Part shown: one piece after another, positions 4,176-14,104 of the stretch | Layout of the letters: the number at the start of each line of letters is the position of its first letter | Position numbering within the stretch: position 1 is the stretch's first letter | DNA from: an uncultured Ectothiorhodospiraceae bacterium | Lineage (GTDB): Bacteria > Pseudomonadota > Gammaproteobacteria > S012-40 | Length of the DNA stretch: 48,211 bases | Assembly: GCA_945787715.1 (NCBI GenBank) | Contig: CALZJE010000020.1 | Coordinates: 1 to 48,211 of the forward strand | Direction of reading: 5' to 3' | The notes under the pieces: generated by a model | Databases searched by the model: none | The model's input: only the letters and a program-made list of their open reading frames with translations | What the model was told of the DNA's origin: nothing | Translations under genes and position numbers: made by a program

Positions 4176-4766
4176 TTAATCAGTTGTACGATTTTTTAAT
4201 TGCTCACGTTGCTTATCTAATATATAGCGGGTGAGATTTTTTCGGTCTATTTCTTTTAGATAGGGCAATTCTACAGCAACATTAAATTTACCTGTTTCGT
4301 TTTTAATTGGCTCTTGTCGTACGACTTTACCAAATGTTTCCATCCCCAGACGATAACCAACTATCGCGATCTTGCAGTACAGATATGAGCCTATAACTAA
4401 CTCATGACTGCTTTTAAAGCTAAATCCACCTTCACTAATATCCATTGTTTCAGCATTTTCAAGCACGCCTCGTTCTGCATCCATTTCGAACTGTTGAAAT
4501 GTAACAATTGAAGAGATTAGATCAATTTTTTGGTTAAGCAGATCAACATACTGTGCAATCCCAGGAGAATCACGGCGTATATTGATTAAGAGCGGACTCA
4601 ACTGGCGAGATATTTGATCAAGCTGATGGGTAATATCAATACTGTCAGATTGAATATAATCCTCATTATTCAGAAATTGCTGAATGTCCTCTTTGCTTGC
4701 TTTTCGATAACCCACGTAAACCTTATTACATAATCGAAAATAATTTCTTCGTTCTTTGCTAGACAT
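4176..4766 (-). CDS. PilZ domain protein, putative c-di-GMP receptor
   Basis: Predicted cytoplasmic cyclic di-GMP binding protein of 196 residues. The two ligand motifs are split: RNYFR (residues 7-11, RxxxR type) at the extreme N-terminus and DISEGGFSF (DxSxxG type) at about 109-117. About 100 residues of mainly helical sequence lie between them. The C-terminal half is the beta-barrel part. It has no catalytic domain and no membrane segment, so it is a receiver or adaptor. It is 100 bp downstream of lipoprotein B on the same strand and could be the last gene of that cassette. A weak GGA-type ribosome site precedes the ATG. The link to the cassette is inferred from position only. Confidence 0.8.
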   Translation of the reverse strand: MSSKERRNYFRLCNKVYVGYRKASKEDIQQFLNNEDYIQSDSIDITHQLDQISRQLSPLLINIRRDSPGIAQYVDLLNQKIDLISSIVTFQQFEMDAERGVLENAETMDISEGGFSFKSSHELVIGSYLYCKIAIVGYRLGMETFGKVVRQEPIKNETGKFNVAVELPYLKEIDRKNLTRYILDKQREQLKNRTTD

Positions 4767-4866: not shown

Positions 4867-6645
4867 TTAATTTTCTGACTCGCCTTTCGATGATTTTTCC
4901 TCTGGATTGTGATCTTCGTTCATGGATTTCTCTTCCTCCCACTCACTATCCTCAATAGAATGACCTTTTTCAGACTCATCTTTCGATGTTTCATTTTCTT
5001 CGTTTAATTTACTCTTTCCTGCTTTTTCATCACTCTCATCGTCGATCTCCATTTCGATAACATAACGAACTCCATCATCAATGACTCCTTCCATATCCAC
5101 CACGTTCCCCACAGAAGCATTGAATACGATTTTTGACACGTTTACTTCGCCAAACTCTTCGATAACAACGATTTCATTGTCTAAATCTATTGAGCTGATG
5201 ACACCTTCTACGTCCCATTCTTCTTTTGACGATGAATCTGTAACTTGCCAGGCACCATCTATATTGATAACTCCTTCTAACTCTACCTTGTCACCAATAG
5301 CACCGGTAAACTCACCATCTAAATATTCGACTACTTGGCCATCAATAGTCAATGGATCCAACGAGGTTACCTTCCCTTCAAGTTCCCAACCTGAGGATTC
5401 ATCACTAAAATCTTGCTCATCCCGTTTTAATCGAGTGGCAACAAATACCTCATTGTTATTTTTGTAAGCACTAATTTCTACAAAATCATTTTTAACCAAG
5501 TCTTCAAAATTAAAATAGCGCTGTGAATTTTCATCTACATCATCACGTTCGTCTTTTAAACGGGTGGTATTTGTGATTAAAATTTCCTGTCCTGCAACAG
5601 TAATGACTTTATCATCGGAATTCACAACTGTTATGACCCCCTCAAACTGACGATTACTCTCTTGCTTTATTTCTATTTCACTGGCAACGATAATATTTTG
5701 TGCATTAGCAATGCCTTCAACTTTAATTTTTACAGCTTTAAGTAACATATCTTTGTTACCCGATTCAAATTTGGTCAAAGTATCAATTTTTATCTGCTGC
5801 CCATTGACAGAAAAGGTATTCAAAAGCAAGTCTATATTTTGATTAATATAGCCCTCGATTTCTACTTCACTGCCCACAACGTTCTCGACACCACTACTAC
5901 CGACTTTTTTAAATTTAATCTCCGTAGCAATGAACTTATCGTTCAAATCTTCTTCACCTTCTGTTTTAACCGAAACAAATTGTCCGGAATCAAAGCTTAT
6001 ATTGTTAAAGTCTTTAAAAACTGCCTCAGAGTAGGAGAAGGCTCTTTTACCAATTTGAAATTGATCCACACTAACATTAGTTGCGATGCCTTGTACCTTA
6101 AACTCTTCACCAAGGGAATGCACCAGCTTTTCCAACGAAACACGAGTTGCGTAAATGACTCCGTCACCTGATGTATATCCGCTGACCTGAACCACATGAC
6201 CGGGAAGGATTTTTTCGATTTCGTTTATCGTGCTCTCTTTACTCTCAAATATTGTGTCGTTATCAACGATGACTATTTGACCCATAACATCAAGACGATT
6301 AGTGGTAAGAATTTTATTTTCAACAACAATACCTTCAACATTTTTTTCAAAGCTAATTACCGACGCGTTTCCTGTAACGCCATCACTATTCACGTTGCCT
6401 TTTAAGTTGACCAGCATGCCAATGCCCAAAGCGCTTTCTAATGCAGATGCACCGTCAACTGAAATTGAGGCCTGATCGGTTTCATATTTAACGCCATTAA
6501 CATAGACACTCCCAAAACTGGTAATTACACCAACAGTTGTCTTGTCATCCAACCCAGTACCAGTTTCACCACCGCCAGCACTACAACCAATAAGTGTGGT
6601 AACAATCGCAGCAATTACTGCCTTCCTTAGAAAACTATTGGGCAT
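4867..6645 (-). CDS. Lipoprotein B: DUF5666-like repeat protein, seven modules
   Basis: Predicted 592-residue lipoprotein. A start at 6645 gives MPNSFLRKAVIAAIVTTLIGC, a clean signal peptide with lipobox LIGC, and AGGAG lies eight bases upstream; the longer frame reaching 6819 lacks such a signal. The mature protein has about seven repeats of some 70 residues, each reading roughly GxI, then IxVxG, then VGxxVxVxG, then ATxIxxK, the pattern I associate with DUF5666 (small beta-barrel, OB-like). The tail after the last module is very rich in Glu, Ser and Lys. It is clearly a paralogue of lipoprotein A: both begin with GVITxFGSxxxNGVxYETDQA and share RDDVD in module 5. The start overlaps the end of the HTH gene by 11 bp, which indicates translational coupling. 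Function unknown; perhaps a periplasmic or surface scaffold. Confidence 0.75.
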   Translation of the reverse strand: MPNSFLRKAVIAAIVTTLIGCSAGGGETGTGLDDKTTVGVITSFGSVYVNGVKYETDQASISVDGASALESALGIGMLVNLKGNVNSDGVTGNASVISFEKNVEGIVVENKILTTNRLDVMGQIVIVDNDTIFESKESTINEIEKILPGHVVQVSGYTSGDGVIYATRVSLEKLVHSLGEEFKVQGIATNVSVDQFQIGKRAFSYSEAVFKDFNNISFDSGQFVSVKTEGEEDLNDKFIATEIKFKKVGSSGVENVVGSEVEIEGYINQNIDLLLNTFSVNGQQIKIDTLTKFESGNKDMLLKAVKIKVEGIANAQNIIVASEIEIKQESNRQFEGVITVVNSDDKVITVAGQEILITNTTRLKDERDDVDENSQRYFNFEDLVKNDFVEISAYKNNNEVFVATRLKRDEQDFSDESSGWELEGKVTSLDPLTIDGQVVEYLDGEFTGAIGDKVELEGVINIDGAWQVTDSSSKEEWDVEGVISSIDLDNEIVVIEEFGEVNVSKIVFNASVGNVVDMEGVIDDGVRYVIEMEIDDESDEKAGKSKLNEENETSKDESEKGHSIEDSEWEEEKSMNEDHNPEEKSSKGESEN

Positions 6646-7465
6646 CGTCTTGCTCCTTGATATCTTTGTTCTCGAAATAATAAATCCCCACACCAATTGC
6701 ATTTCGACCAGTACCTTTTGAATTTGGATTCGCATCTCTATCGTGCTTCGCCATTGCCTGATCAACTTTTTCCAATAGCGTCTGCGAGTCTGTGTTGATA
6801 ATATCCTGTAATTCAGCAATGGCTTCGTCTGGCAAATTATCGTAATAAACTTTACGTTGGAAAAACGGTTTTAATTCTGGTTGGTAAATATTTCTATCCA
6901 TGGTATTTAATAATGCGGACACATCAGTGCCAATATAATAAATCTTTTCATTAACGCCGGATTTGGGAATATAGGCACGTGAAAGTAGGTGAATATTTTG
7001 TTGCTCATCCACTTCTACCACACCAACACGCTCTAGCTCATCCAAAATTGCACGAGGAGGCACATCACCGCTGTATGCTTTAACCAATGAAGTAAACGTG
7101 GGGGCTTCGCCTTCAAACTGCAATGCTAATGCTTTGCTATCGTCCTCTTGATATGTTTCATCGTGAACCCAGCCATAGACGACACGTGCCGCACGGTTGT
7201 ATTTTTCAATTAGCAAGTTGTCCGGCTCGTCTTCCAACTCTTGAATACGTTTAACTTCTTTACGTGATAATCCTGTAATAGTTGCTATTCGGGAATTGCT
7301 TTGTTTTCGACCTTCTACAGTAAAATCTTTTGTTGCAACTTCGATATACGCGCGGCGAACCAAATCAGCAAATGCACCGTAAGGGACATTATTGCGCAAT
7401 AACATTCTAACCAATGGTTTAAGAACACTGACTATTGCTCTATTTAATAATGATTGCTGAGTCAT
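6635..7465 (-). CDS. DUF6502-like protein with N-terminal helix-turn-helix
   Basis: Cytoplasmic protein of 276 residues without signal peptide or membrane segment. The N-terminal third (LKPLVRMLLRNNVPYGAFAD, then SNSRIATITGLSRKEVKRI at 57-75) looks like a DNA-binding helix-turn-helix, and the overall pattern matches what I recall as DUF6502. The middle region (about 130-200) may be a second winged-helix-like or partner-binding part. It sits between the two paralogous lipoprotein genes: 82 bp after A, and overlapping B by 11 bp. AAGGA precedes the ATG by five bases. The most economical idea is that it is the cassette's own transcription regulator and binds the twin palindromes upstream of lipoprotein A. 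That role is inferred from fold and context; no direct evidence is visible. Confidence 0.72.
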   Translation of the reverse strand: MTQQSLLNRAIVSVLKPLVRMLLRNNVPYGAFADLVRRAYIEVATKDFTVEGRKQSNSRIATITGLSRKEVKRIQELEDEPDNLLIEKYNRAARVVYGWVHDETYQEDDSKALALQFEGEAPTFTSLVKAYSGDVPPRAILDELERVGVVEVDEQQNIHLLSRAYIPKSGVNEKIYYIGTDVSALLNTMDRNIYQPELKPFFQRKVYYDNLPDEAIAELQDIINTDSQTLLEKVDQAMAKHDRDANPNSKGTGRNAIGVGIYYFENKDIKEQDDAQ

Positions 7466-7481
7466 TTAATCCTTCAAGTTT

Positions 7482-7507
7482 GCACGAACCTCTTGCGAAG
7501 TTCGTGC
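7482..7507 (-). promoter_or_regulatory. Intercistronic hairpin before the DUF6502-like gene
   Basis: A perfect 8-bp stem, GCACGAAC (7482-7489) with GTTCGTGC (7500-7507) and a 10-base loop, lies in the gap between lipoprotein A and the HTH gene. It ends seven bases before the AAGGA ribosome site. There is no T-run after it in the direction of transcription, so it is more likely an mRNA processing or stability structure, or one that sets the ratio of A to regulator, than a full terminator. Confidence 0.6.
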
Positions 7508-7547
7508 TTATTTTTAAATCGAATACCTAAGCTACTTCTATTTCAGA

Positions 7548-9125
7548 TTAGATATTATCATTTTTATCGTCGGAATCAGAGATATCATCTTCGTCTTTAT
7601 CATTATCATCATGTTCAGGCTCTTCATGATCCTCATCATCTTCATGCTGATCCGAACCACCGATATAAACACTATCATCAGTTTCAGCATCGCCTTCACT
7701 TGCTGTGAATACATTATCAGTAAAAGAACCCTTTAGTTCTGCTTTCATCCCAACTTCAGGGGTAAACTCACCAGCAGACGAATAATCAACTGTTACGCCA
7801 GCAACTACCGTCGTCAGAGCAAGCATATCAACAGATTCGATTTTACCTTCAAGTTTCTCTTCTTTACCCTCTTTAAAAGTTTTTCGCTTAGCTTTCGTTG
7901 CTGTCAGCCCACCTGACGCATTTTTAAAAGCCTTAATTTTAATCCAATCGCCAACAACTAAATCATCAACGCCGAATTTATATTTTACTAGTTCACTTTT
8001 GTCCACATCGTCTCGGTCATCTTCTACCATCGTTGAGTTATTCAAGGTAACTGTTAATCCAAACAATTTAATTGTGTTATTGATAATATCTGTTGCTTCT
8101 ATTTTACCAGTCATTTTGATATCACCACTTGGTTTAAAAATCAGTTTTTCCGCAACTAAGTTTCCATCGACATCCACATTACCTTTCACTTTAACTTTCA
8201 AACCATTCGTTAAAGTTGAGACATCACCATGAACAATACGAGTTGTTGTCTCAAGTAACACTGTTGATCCATTCACTTCAATTTCTGTGCTACTAATAAC
8301 ATTAGTAATGACACCTTGAACTTCGACTTCTTCGTCATCTTCTTCATATTTGTGTTTTTTCTTGCCACTATTTTTTAATTCGATTTTAGTCGCTACCAGC
8401 TCTTTTGCATCGTTAAGTTCGGTGTCGCTTTTAACTTCCAATAATAAACCTTCGGCTATCATATCTACTGTCATATCATCAAATTCTGCAGAAGCATAGT
8501 TAACAACCATTTCACCAATCATAAATGTTGTATCAGTAATAGGAAGTGAAACCCGACCTTTCATTTCAATATCATCGCCATCAGAAAGTAAAGGTTTTTT
8601 AACTTCTAAACGAGTCGCCCAGACACTCCCATCACCTGAAGAATAACCACTAACCTCTATGATATTATCATTGGCAATTTCTGCCATTGACGTTACTGAA
8701 TCAACAGCGCTTTCAAACACTGTGTCTTCGTCTGTATGAATGGTCAAACCCATAATATTGAAAGTTCCATCTGTTCCATAATTGGAGTTATCAATGACTA
8801 TGCCTTCCACTTCATTTTCGAATTCAACGGCGACGGCATTACCTGTCCCATCAGCTGCAGCATCGCCCGACAAAGTGACGACCATTCCCAGTTTTAATAA
8901 GGACTCATCACCGGCAACGCCATCGACAACGAAACTCGCTTGATCTGTCTCATACTCCACACCATTGATAAAAATACTGCCGAATCCAGTAATTACGCCC
9001 GTTGATGACTTGTTGATAACTGTAGAATCGTTTGTTGTGCTTTTATCTTCATTGCACGCGGATAGACCCAAAGATGCGATTACTGCAAGTGCGAGTGTAG
9101 ATTTTTTCAAAATGGCTTTCATCAT
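7548..9125 (-). CDS. Lipoprotein A: DUF5666-like repeat protein, six modules
   Basis: Predicted 525-residue lipoprotein and first gene of the cassette. The signal peptide ends in the lipobox LSAC. The first two codons are both ATG; AGGAG is four bases from the first and seven from the second, so initiation at 9122 is more likely. About six repeats of roughly 70 residues follow the same plan as lipoprotein B, with RDDVD in module 5. The C-terminal 45 residues are almost all Asp, Glu, His and Asn, suggesting binding of divalent cations or simply strong surface charge. Two palindromic operators and a TATAAT box lie just upstream, so it is probably the most strongly controlled member. It shares no catalytic motif that I recognise; the function is unknown. 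Confidence 0.77.
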   Translation of the reverse strand: MMKAILKKSTLALAVIASLGLSACNEDKSTTNDSTVINKSSTGVITGFGSIFINGVEYETDQASFVVDGVAGDESLLKLGMVVTLSGDAAADGTGNAVAVEFENEVEGIVIDNSNYGTDGTFNIMGLTIHTDEDTVFESAVDSVTSMAEIANDNIIEVSGYSSGDGSVWATRLEVKKPLLSDGDDIEMKGRVSLPITDTTFMIGEMVVNYASAEFDDMTVDMIAEGLLLEVKSDTELNDAKELVATKIELKNSGKKKHKYEEDDEEVEVQGVITNVISSTEIEVNGSTVLLETTTRIVHGDVSTLTNGLKVKVKGNVDVDGNLVAEKLIFKPSGDIKMTGKIEATDIINNTIKLFGLTVTLNNSTMVEDDRDDVDKSELVKYKFGVDDLVVGDWIKIKAFKNASGGLTATKAKRKTFKEGKEEKLEGKIESVDMLALTTVVAGVTVDYSSAGEFTPEVGMKAELKGSFTDNVFTASEGDAETDDSVYIGGSDQHEDDEDHEEPEHDDNDKDEDDISDSDDKNDNI

Positions 9126-9178
9126 AGTGCTCCTATTGAGAGTTTTTAACCAATCGTTGTCTCTGTATCGCTCACCAT

Positions 9179-9198
9179 ATTGGGATCTTTATCCCAAT
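9179..9198. promoter_or_regulatory. Palindromic operator, proximal copy
   Basis: ATTGGGA-N6-TCCCAAT, perfect half-sites. It overlaps the last two bases of the TATAAT box (9197-9202) and the expected transcription start of lipoprotein A, so a bound dimer would block transcription. The same palindrome recurs 73 bp upstream. Confidence 0.75.
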
Positions 9199-9202
9199 TA
9201 TA
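9197..9202 (-). promoter_or_regulatory. -10 box of the lipoprotein A cassette
   Basis: A perfect TATAAT on the minus strand, 72-77 bases before the start codon at 9125. I see no good TTGACA at the usual distance, so it may need an activator or depend on other contacts. Confidence 0.5.
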
Positions 9203-9251
9203 CGCAATATTTGTTTAATGAGACACTGATTACAGTTTAATTCTACCTAGG

Positions 9252-9271
9252 ATTGGGAATATTTTCCCAAT
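9252..9271. promoter_or_regulatory. Palindromic operator, distal copy
   Basis: Second ATTGGGA-N6-TCCCAAT, with the same half-sites and spacer length as the proximal copy but a different spacer sequence. The arms extend by one more pair to GATTGGGAA/TTCCCAATC. Centre-to-centre distance is 73 bp, close to seven helical turns. Confidence 0.75.
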
Positions 9272-9588
9272 CTCAATGACGAAATTATAGTACTAACCTC
9301 TAATAAATTAAAAGCGGTTTCGTATAAAAACGAGATCTAATAGGCGTTTTTTTTAGCAAATGAAATATTTACCTATATTAAACATATAGTTAAGTCTTTA
9401 TTGAAAACTATGGGATTTTGAGAGATGGCATCACCGCAGATACCTCTTAGCAGTATTTTGTAAAGATCGTCAGGAATATCTAGCAGGAGTTTGTGTGTTC
9501 TAAAAGAGGTGTAATCATTAATCGGTAGATATGCAGGAATGCTTGTCTGATCTGAATAACACGCTCATCCCCATTTATCCTCTTATCT
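9272..9588. other. Intergenic region upstream of the lipoprotein cassette
   Basis: Between the distal operator and the DUF1566 gene on its right I see no coding potential and no strong further structure, except the possible terminator at 9589-9621. Confidence 0.5.
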
Positions 9589-10303: not shown

Positions 10304-13300
10304 CTAGGGAACCCCGCTACGCACTAAGCGAATATAATTGTTGTTAGCATGATTACTGATGTGAATATTGCCATCACTAAAGTTAACAACCCTAGCGTAG
10401 CTCACAGGATTGCCATCCATCGAGATTGACCAATAACCACTGCTAATTGTTTTTGGAAAATAATTTGTATCAACTGAGGGAGAGTATTTATTATAGTTCA
10501 TAATACTCAGCAATTCTCCTCGGGTAGGCATGCGCCAGTCATTAATCCCGCAATAACCGGCCTGATTTACCCTTTGAACAAAACTTTCAGTATTGCAAAA
10601 GCTAGCAGGATTATTAACATCATAGCCATCACAGATCGCACCATCATCATCGGCATAGCCAGCTATGCCACCGTTGGTGTTAGGATTGGTATCGTACCAA
10701 TTATAGCGATCATCGCTATCATGCAAACCTTCATCGGCCGCAACACTATTACCCCCTTGTTTTACCTCCCAAAGCAACCCTGTCACATTATCTTTAACAC
10801 AAAACCATTCGGTGGCATCTGCCGACAGAGAATTGCCATTGGCATCAAGCTTGGTAAAGTTAAAACCACTATGACCGTCGATGTTATCATTTTGAGCAAT
10901 GTTACTATCACGACCTTGGCTACAATCTTGTTGGTTAACGGCTACGCCATTACAATTGCCAATAGGACTATTACCATATGGAGAGTAACCACCGAAAGTG
11001 ATGCCTGTATCATTAAGTGGTTTCGATGGAACAATCATCACTCGTACCGATTTTTCTACGCTCGGGGTAGATTCTAAATTGTTCGCTAATGCAGTGATAA
11101 CAAAATGATAATCTACCCAGAGTTTTAAATCGGACAATACTAATCCGCTGCTTTGATCAAGTAGCATTGTACCATCCATTGCGCTATAGTTATCCGGTGT
11201 TACCCCACTTTGCTGAGCGTAATAGACATTATATGAAGTTGCACCGGAGACATCCGCCCAGTTTAGGGTAACTTGGGCATTACCATTTAGCAAAGAGAGT
11301 GCAGGTGCGAATGGCACATCGTCGTTTCGAATAGTGACAAGACTTTGCCCATCACTAATTGTTGCGCCAACAACATTACTCAAATTAATTATAAACTGTT
11401 CATCGTTTTCAACAATGACATCATCTTTGATGTTATAAATAATAATATCGCTGGAAACCCCAGGAGTAAATCTTAAGGTGCCACTCTTTGCCTCGTAATC
11501 ATTTCCATCAATGGCACTATTATTTTCTGTGACATAATCAACCTGAACCATAAAATCACTAGCTTTACTCAGCTTAACGCTTACAGCGGCTATCGTATCC
11601 GATTCATTAACGGTCACATCTTCAAGGCTCAAGCTCGGTAGATCGTTGTTGTCGATTATGGTTACTTGTATATTTGTTTTATCTAAAATGGCTCCCTGAA
11701 TGTTGCTCAGATTTATTAATAATGTTTCATCTGTTTCGTAGATTTCGTCGTCGTTGATCTTTAGCGTAATAGTTTTTTCAGTTTCACCTACATTAAACAC
11801 AATGTTTCCAGTCTTCGCTTCATAGTCATTGACGCCATCCTCATTTGCTTCGGTTGCAGTACCATTTGCGGTAGCATAATCGAATGTTATTGGTGATGCG
11901 CTGGCTGAGTTTAGAGAAATAGTCATTGTGAGGTTTGTGTTTTCCTCATCAACACTAACATCTTCCATACTGACTTTAGTTAATGCTGTGGAAAAGCGTG
12001 AAGTAAACACGGCTGCTAGTGATTCACCACTTACATCTTTTATATCGGTTCGGAGTTCGATGCGGTACAACTCATTGCTTAACCAAGTATTGATTGGGCT
12101 GAAGCTAGCTGTTTTAGTGCTTTGATCATAAGTTACTGTACCACTTACTGGACTACCATCAGGATGCGAGACACGAAAGGTGTCAACATTTATACTAATT
12201 ACGTCCATATCTATGTCAAAAGTGACATCGATTTTATTCAAAGTGATGTCTACATCTTTCTGCTCACTCCCCGGAGAGGTGGCTAATACTTTGGGGCCCG
12301 CAACCAGAGGCTCATTATCAATAATTGCAATAGCAACGGTACTTTGACTACCTAATGTGGCACCTGTGACACTACTGAGTACCACCGTAAAGGATTCAGT
12401 GTTTGGCCCTTCATGCAGACTGTCGTCGTTGATTTTCACATCGAAACTCAGCTGCTTGCTGCCAGCAGGTAACGTTATCAATTGATTATTTAAAGTCGCA
12501 TAATCATCGAGTGATGCTGTGCCGGGCACAGTATTAATACTCACGGCAATGTTGTTTTGTGTATCAGCTTTATCCAATTTTAAACTGAGCGTGGCAACCC
12601 CATCCTCTTCCGATACGGATACATTTGTTTGGGAAAAATTAATCTCCGGTAATACCTCATCAATATTAAGCACAGCTACCTGTAGTGACTGCTGAGCTAT
12701 GTTACTACCGTCGCTAACCTCAATATCGAGTTGATAAATATTATCTGTATTGCTATCTTCAGGGATTAGATAATCTGGTGGGTTGTTAAACAGCAATGCA
12801 CCGTTATTACTATTTATTGTAAACAAACTCGCATCAGGTCCACCAACAATACTAAAAGTTAAATTCTCACTATCTACATCTGTTGCGGTTATGACAGTGA
12901 TTGCACCGCTATTTTCAGAGATGCTAAACTCAGAAGACGATGTAATCACGGGCGCTCGATTTTCAATGACATCTTCGTTAACCATAGCAACACTAACATT
13001 TGAAAACGCACTAATTTGCTCATCTCTATTTGCAACAACCCAATAATAATAATTCTGATTGGGTATCAGAGCATTGTCTTCATAAGGTGATGAAACATTT
13101 TCAACAATTATTGCCGTATCAATATCAAAAACATCACTCATGTTTCGATAAAGTGTATAGCTATCTACCGCTTCAACGACATCCCAACTAATCTTTATCG
13201 AATTTTTATTGTTAACTTCGCTGGTAAAATTAACGGGTATTTTAGGGGGCACGGTGAATGTTAATGTTTTAGAATCTGGACTTTCATTGTTTGACCAATT

Positions 13301-13624
13301 TGATTTTATTCTAACGAAGTATTGCTGACCATTGTCATCAGCAGTGATGATATGGGGTGGTCTATCTAAGGTGATTTTTGTTGTTTCATTAGCATCAAAT
13401 AGCTCTGATGTAGATAAATACAAGGTGTAGTTTTCTACACCACTTTGTTCATTCCAGTTCAATATCAGCTGATGCTTATTATTTCGTTCCAAGAATATTT
13501 TAGGTGCACTTGACGGTGCCTGCTGCGTGGGGTGAGTATTTTCGACATCGCCAACCGCGCCAGTACCGCAGGCTTGCAATTGAACGACACTCATTAGAAC
13601 GATGATTAGTTTTAATATATGCAT
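10304..13624 (-). CDS. Large multidomain lipoprotein: Fn3, cadherin-like, Calx-beta, DUF1566
   Basis: Starting at 13624 gives a 1106-residue lipoprotein with signal MHILKLIIVLMSVVQLQAC (lipobox LQAC) and a GAGAG site; the frame is open 26 codons further to 13702, but those starts give no signal peptide. Order, roughly: two fibronectin type III modules (40-215), one cadherin-like module (220-325, with ATDVDSENLTFSI), a Calx-beta (330-440), an Ig-like Big_5 type module (445-545), two Calx-beta modules (550-775), a further Fn3 (775-870) and a C-terminal DUF1566 domain (about 900-1106) ending NYIRLVRSGVP. Calx-beta and cadherin modules usually bind calcium. It is presumably an outer-membrane or surface adhesin. 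Its DUF1566 end is related to the next gene and its plan to the partial gene at the right edge of the window. Confidence 0.85.
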   Translation of the reverse strand: MHILKLIIVLMSVVQLQACGTGAVGDVENTHPTQQAPSSAPKIFLERNNKHQLILNWNEQSGVENYTLYLSTSELFDANETTKITLDRPPHIITADDNGQQYFVRIKSNWSNNESPDSKTLTFTVPPKIPVNFTSEVNNKNSIKISWDVVEAVDSYTLYRNMSDVFDIDTAIIVENVSSPYEDNALIPNQNYYYWVVANRDEQISAFSNVSVAMVNEDVIENRAPVITSSSEFSISENSGAITVITATDVDSENLTFSIVGGPDASLFTINSNNGALLFNNPPDYLIPEDSNTDNIYQLDIEVSDGSNIAQQSLQVAVLNIDEVLPEINFSQTNVSVSEEDGVATLSLKLDKADTQNNIAVSINTVPGTASLDDYATLNNQLITLPAGSKQLSFDVKINDDSLHEGPNTESFTVVLSSVTGATLGSQSTVAIAIIDNEPLVAGPKVLATSPGSEQKDVDITLNKIDVTFDIDMDVISINVDTFRVSHPDGSPVSGTVTYDQSTKTASFSPINTWLSNELYRIELRTDIKDVSGESLAAVFTSRFSTALTKVSMEDVSVDEENTNLTMTISLNSASASPITFDYATANGTATEANEDGVNDYEAKTGNIVFNVGETEKTITLKINDDEIYETDETLLINLSNIQGAILDKTNIQVTIIDNNDLPSLSLEDVTVNESDTIAAVSVKLSKASDFMVQVDYVTENNSAIDGNDYEAKSGTLRFTPGVSSDIIIYNIKDDVIVENDEQFIINLSNVVGATISDGQSLVTIRNDDVPFAPALSLLNGNAQVTLNWADVSGATSYNVYYAQQSGVTPDNYSAMDGTMLLDQSSGLVLSDLKLWVDYHFVITALANNLESTPSVEKSVRVMIVPSKPLNDTGITFGGYSPYGNSPIGNCNGVAVNQQDCSQGRDSNIAQNDNIDGHSGFNFTKLDANGNSLSADATEWFCVKDNVTGLLWEVKQGGNSVAADEGLHDSDDRYNWYDTNPNTNGGIAGYADDDGAICDGYDVNNPASFCNTESFVQRVNQAGYCGINDWRMPTRGELLSIMNYNKYSPSVDTNYFPKTISSGYWSISMDGNPVSYARVVNFSDGNIHISNHANNNYIRLVRSGVP

Positions 13625-14104
13625 TTTTCTCTCGTATAAAGTTTCGTTCATCCTAGAAAACGCAGTTGGATGTAAAATAGAACGTAGAATATTGTTTTTC
13701 ATATAGCTAGGCGAAACAAGAGGCTGCGTTACGCCCCTAAGGAAGTGCCCTTGGGGTATATTTCATGGATCAATTGCTTTTTCTAGGTTCATCAAGTGAT
13801 GACTTAATGACCACACAGAGGTACTCATGGGTTTCAAATTGCGCATATTATATACTCAACCTCCCCCCAAAGTCTGAGTATTATTGATCGAAACTATTAA
13901 TTGACTGTTATTTATTCGCTGCCGTAAAAATTAGTATACGTTTATAGGTTTTCAATCGCCATTTTAGCAAGGCATGAGGAAGGCGAATAGTGCACTATTC
14001 AACTGACGAACAACACAGCTAAAATGAGTGAGTGGAAAGTCAGAAATGTGAAGTAATTTTTGAGGCAGACCTTAGGCCATTCACCGTTTAGCTATTTTTT
14101 ATTA
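13625..14104. other. Intergenic region with hairpin and dispersed-repeat-like palindrome
   Basis: About 480 bp without a supported gene. It contains a bulged hairpin 13734-13756 (CCCCTAAGG with CCTTGGGG) in the leader of the DUF1566 lipoprotein and the nested palindrome 13960-14026 listed separately. I see no coding sequence. Confidence 0.5.
13960..14026. repeat. 67-bp nested palindromic intergenic element
   Basis: The outer arms CATTTTAGC (13960-13968) and GCTAAAATG (14018-14026) are perfect inverted repeats. The centre holds a perfect 16-bp palindrome, GAATAGTGCACTATTC (13985-14000). The two symmetry axes nearly coincide (about 13993). It lies downstream of the RND pump gene. It resembles dispersed intergenic repeats I have seen in marine gammaproteobacteria, but that is recollection. 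Confidence 0.6.

Follow-up and report, generated by a model that had tools for sequence, protein, structure and literature searches.

In local repressors of the MarR/TetR type and in autorepressors of the phage type, an HTH protein is encoded in the operon under its control, its palindromic operator covers the promoter, and the regulon is small and local. Palindromes of the GGGnnnnnCCC type are bound by HetR, the heterocyst regulator of cyanobacteria (PMC4192349). The locus described here resembles the former systems in the layout of its genes and sites, and the latter in having a palindrome of the GGG...CCC type. It lies in a stretch of 48,211 nucleotides (the window; contig CALZJE010000020.1) from an uncultured Ectothiorhodospiraceae bacterium and comprises the following features:

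4867..6645 (about), minus strand: second DUF5666 lipoprotein-like gene (Pfam PF18914, E 4.2e-37)
6635..7465, minus strand: DUF6502 protein, the proposed repressor (Pfam PF20112, E 1.6e-80)
7481..7507 (ends approximate), minus strand: RNA hairpin between DUF5666 and DUF6502, formed by the inverted repeat GCACGAAC...GTTCGTGC
7548..9125, minus strand: DUF5666 protein with a lipoprotein-type signal, encoded by the gene that heads the operon (Pfam PF18914, E 6.6e-42)
9179..9198, no strand: candidate proximal operator ATTGGGA-N6-TCCCAAT, exact match, sharing 2 bp with a TATAAT
9197..9202, minus strand: candidate -10 box TATAAT (from sequence), overlapping the proximal operator, without a good -35
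9252..9271, no strand: candidate distal operator ATTGGGA-N6-TCCCAAT, exact match
9284..9289, minus strand: candidate -10 box TATAAT (from sequence), 12 bp upstream of the distal operator, without a good -35

An earlier note on this DNA had described two identical ATTGGGA-N6-TCCCAAT palindromes 73 bp apart, the proximal one over a perfect TATAAT. Both palindromes are indeed exact (ATTGGGATCTTTATCCCAAT at 9179-9198 and ATTGGGAATATTTTCCCAAT at 9252-9271), each is 20 bp long with a start-to-start spacing of 73 bp, and the minus-strand TATAAT at 9202-9197 overlaps the proximal one by 2 bp. In the whole genome (4.4 Mb) this pair represents the only two exact copies. At up to three mismatches the window contained 11 matches where 2.6 were expected, a number reached in none of 100 shuffles. 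A weak third match at 9135-9154 with three mismatches is at chance level, and the near matches found in other parts of the genome (L003, L004) are intragenic.

The palindromes precede a minus-strand operon with the gene order DUF5666 lipoprotein, DUF6502, DUF5666. The DUF6502 protein matched PF20112 over residues 8-268 with 270 bits and the two DUF5666 genes matched PF18914 with 142 and 127 bits; the cut-off (Pfam gathering score) is 27 for each. For the second DUF5666 gene the start was placed at an ATG ahead of a lipoprotein-type signal. This start lies within the end of the DUF6502 gene (6635-6645), an overlap as in translational coupling. The plus strand has no gene start near the palindromes. 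Going upstream, the first gene (10187-9645) encodes an Lcl_C-domain protein on the same strand as the operon; this gene and its neighbour at 10304-13702 both have an Lcl_C domain at the end, and the larger of the two also carries Calx-beta, Big_5 and fn3 repeats. The 82 nt that separate the leading DUF5666 gene from DUF6502 (7466-7547) fold with -20.3 kcal/mol. A strong RNA hairpin is present in the corresponding gap in L060, L065, L010, L006 and L069 as well. The sequences of these hairpins differ between loci, some are accompanied by a T run, and they resemble a leaky terminator that reduces expression of the regulator.

DUF6502 homologues were found in 78 of 276 sampled gammaproteobacterial genomes, i. 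e. in about a quarter. About 80 loci were compared, plus those of Marinobacter nauticus (L006) and a Nitrospirota MAG (L005). In the set of 58 closest homologues, whose members are Gammaproteobacteria (Marinobacter among them) and one Nitrospirota MAG, the motif recurs upstream of the orthologous DUF5666/DUF6502 cassettes: WTTGGGA-N6-TCCCAAW with at most one mismatch was present within 2.6 kb upstream at 40 of the 58 loci and exact at 22, whereas 59 permuted half-sites matched on average 0.03 loci and at most one. It is located before DUF6502 itself or before the DUF5666 gene heading the operon. No site at this threshold was found at the remaining 18 loci, some of them because the available upstream stretch was short. 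A de novo scan for dyads in the 90 nt upstream of 99 DUF6502 genes, in which the motif was not assumed, revealed one dominant dyad, GGGA-N6-TCCC, the commonest with 45 occurrences. Any 4-bp dyad with a spacer of 6 occurred in 59 of the 99 upstream regions as compared to 17 in shuffles. A separate later genome draw contributed three close homologues (L256-L258), all with a site at no more than one mismatch near DUF6502; searches for fresh relatives at the order level yielded almost no new genomes.

The DUF6502 protein contains a near-invariant HTH at residues 57-76, with helices at 57-64 and 68-76 in both structure models. In an alignment of 40 DUF6502 proteins T64, G65 and R68 never vary, and K69, E70 and V71 are almost invariant. 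The second part of the protein (about residues 88-165) is winged-helix-like; residues 82-169 of the model resemble many winged-helix DNA-binding domains (Z 5.8-6.9), a likeness that is suggestive only. The full-length model (pLDDT 52) yielded no usable result in a fold search, Foldseek returned no match for the DUF6502 model at E under 0.001, and no sequence relation of DUF6502 to any solved regulator was detectable. The sites had been proposed to be operators located at a promoter, with the adjacent HTH gene as the natural candidate regulator. The recurrence of the motif before orthologous cassettes supports the first proposal, and together with the conserved HTH it leaves DUF6502 the best candidate. 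The palindromes are real and conserved, and judged from the sequence, operators are by far the best reading of them.

At the orthologous loci the sites have a fixed geometry. In many cases the site directly adjoins the start codon of DUF6502, the ATG following TCCC after 3-5 nt in 29 of 48 sites. TTGAC accompanies 21 of the 48, always at an offset of -19 to -17 from GGGA (1.3 in shuffles), and in 15 of these 21 sites a -10-like hexamer, 16-17 bp beyond TTGAC, occupies one exact position inside the palindrome; mostly this hexamer is found at +5 to +10, within the site. With the -10 in the palindrome, transcription would start about 7 nt later and hence at or beside the ATG, so that the DUF6502 transcript of such loci is probably leaderless. 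With a protein bound there, the -10 box would be covered, which makes repression by occlusion the natural reading. Across 398 genomes of the phylum the loose composite TTGAC-N12/13-GGGA-N6-TCCC showed no enrichment relative to its reversed control; one of its matches (G607) lies directly before a DUF6502 gene.

The same geometry bears on the idea that the palindromes are RNA hairpins in the leader. Each could form a 7-bp stem, and at least the proximal site of the window could be transcribed from the upstream TATAAT. Yet it is the letters that are kept and not pairing alone, GGGA dominating the arms of the spacer-6 dyads, and in leaderless loci the site would be upstream of the expected transcript start. 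We regard RNA hairpins as extremely improbable.

What we observed, then, are the sites, their conservation, their fixed geometry relative to -35, -10 and ATG, their co-occurrence with DUF6502 (see below) and the conserved HTH; from these we infer binding by DUF6502, repression rather than activation, the leaderless start and release by a signal. It is highly probable, as far as sequence can tell, that the operators are bound by the DUF6502 protein of the same operon, which occludes the promoter and represses the operon and a few genes for envelope proteins until a signal arrives. A DUF6502 dimer would bind WTTGGGA-N6-TCCCAAW and, by occluding the promoter, would repress its own operon; a few other envelope-protein genes would be repressed as well, and the signal would release DUF6502 from the operator. 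In many orthologues the palindrome encloses the presumed -10 and ends 3-5 nt before the DUF6502 ATG, the mRNA probably being leaderless. In the window one candidate site overlaps a putative TATAAT box and the other follows a second such box just downstream, both ahead of the leading DUF5666 gene.

The second of these boxes (9289-9284) was absent from the earlier note. The -35 boxes in the window are poor; no good -35 was found for either TATAAT, and thus the promoters here may be weak. The window sites also differ from those of many relatives in that the -10 box is not enclosed by the palindrome. In the nearest orthologous operon (L060) a single site is positioned 11 nt downstream of a TATAAT. 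A -10 box lacking a good -35, as at both window sites, is what one finds at activated promoters, and DUF6502 could be an activator on these sites, e. g. under an inducing signal. However, the typical locus has TTGACA and a TATAAT-like box with the site over the -10, which fits occlusion instead, and we consider activation very unlikely.

As 73 bp is close to seven helical turns, it had also been suggested that two dimers face the same side of the DNA. Cooperative looping from one face of the DNA would be an addition to DUF6502 binding, not an alternative to it. A comparable spacing of 69 bp was found at one further locus (L061), but the comparison of loci does not support this part of the earlier note. 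Most loci have one site each, as does the nearest orthologue L060. The 15 site pairs that were found at up to two mismatches have spacings of 22-30, 38-39, 69 and 73 bp, and when placed on a 10.5-bp helix they share no common phase (phase coherence 0.34, mean phase about half a turn). Moreover, each window site has a TATAAT of its own, so that two operators occluding independently explain the window without looping. We consider looping unlikely.

Exact sites were present in 28 of 58 genomes having DUF6502 and in 3 of 58 without it (Fisher p 1.3e-7). In the DUF6502-bearing genomes the pattern occurred 47 times forward and only 3 times when written backwards. Twenty of these 47 exact sites are away from DUF6502, some of them before genes that share no theme, and a part of the 20 may be due to chance. 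The genes with an exact site in front include additional DUF5666 genes (L172, L174, L187), genes for Beta_propel lipoproteins (L188, L189), one for a glycine-zipper protein that recurs in three related genomes (L173, L175, L176) and one that weakly matches DUF4382 (L183). An operon encoding a multihaem cytochrome c also follows an exact site, in two genera of the family (L184 in G007, L190 in G001). A small regulon of envelope proteins is the likely interpretation. In G001, which belongs to the genus of the window and is 80% complete, the site L190 is present and DUF6502 was not found.

This last genome, together with the exact sites far from DUF6502, could point to another, unlinked transcription factor that uses the sites to control the DUF6502 and DUF5666 genes, DUF6502 itself doing something else. 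Against this stand the correlation of the sites with the presence of DUF6502, the frequency with which the DUF6502 gene itself is the immediate target, and its conserved HTH. In addition, where the paralogue or the class differs, other palindromes appear in the same place. AACGGGA-N6-TCCCGTT was found at L078 and L124, and GTGGGA-N5-TCCCAC just upstream of five alphaproteobacterial DUF6502 genes from the separate later draw. A DUF6502 paralogue in the genome of the window (L079, C67:7732-7790) has P at the position of K69, and just before its ATG are two GTAA-N6-TTAC palindromes 41 bp apart. The GTAA pattern has three exact places genome-wide, two of them before this paralogue; the third (window 4714-4731) lies inside another gene. 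P for K69 coincides here with GTAA for GGGA, in one case only. We consider control by an unlinked factor unlikely and retain DUF6502 as the protein that would bind the sites.

A literature search, with most subscription journals and preprints outside its scope, retrieved no paper naming DUF6502 and just passing mentions of DUF5666 in four papers. A described TTGGGA/TCCCAA operator was sought as well, and the one bacterial near match examined belongs to an unrelated motif of the TTGTGA type. Taken together, the comparisons make it probable that DUF6502 is a widespread, hitherto unrecognised family of transcription regulators, found in Pseudomonadota as well as in at least one Nitrospirota MAG, whose sub-families each have their own GGGA-N5/6-TCCC operator, often with the -10 inside and a leaderless regulator gene behind it, and which would control DUF5666 and other envelope lipoproteins. 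If this is true, a domain family of unknown function would gain both a function, that of a sequence-specific autorepressor, and a target sequence, and the DUF5666 lipoproteins, whose function is likewise unknown, would be tied to a defined regulon. With the operator, the regulon could be listed genome by genome and the inducer would become searchable. The family would also be a natural set for studying how changes in the HTH shift the letters of the operator, as with K69 to P and GGGA to GTAA.

How does DUF6502 compare with the described systems in detail? The resemblance to HetR that the eye suggests extends to structure rows covering DUF6502 residues 17-165 (Z 6.1-6.5), yet the rmsd is 6.5-7.5 and GGG and CCC are 8 or 7 nt apart in the DUF6502 sites as opposed to 5 in those of HetR. 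Homology to HetR found no support in hhalign, where full and N-terminal DUF6502 profiles gave a probability of 0.1% and scored below the median of 150 shuffles; with two HetR rows only, and these near-identical, the exclusion is not a firm one. The resemblance to winged-helix domains of the MarR/DtxR type concerns residues 82-169 of the DUF6502 model, but these are only 6-20% identical, a Z below 8 may mean only a common arrangement, and the most conserved HTH of DUF6502 lies outside this region. The closest parallel is in organisation. As in a local autorepressor, the regulator gene is within the unit that it would control and a conserved palindrome is at the promoter, the site being 3-5 nt before the DUF6502 ATG or ahead of the leading DUF5666 gene. 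Unlike the repressors of the MarR/TetR and phage types, DUF6502 stands apart in sequence from the solved regulators with which it could be compared, and its putative operator follows a fixed GGGA-N5/6-TCCC pattern, which at many loci surrounds the -10 box and directly adjoins the start codon.
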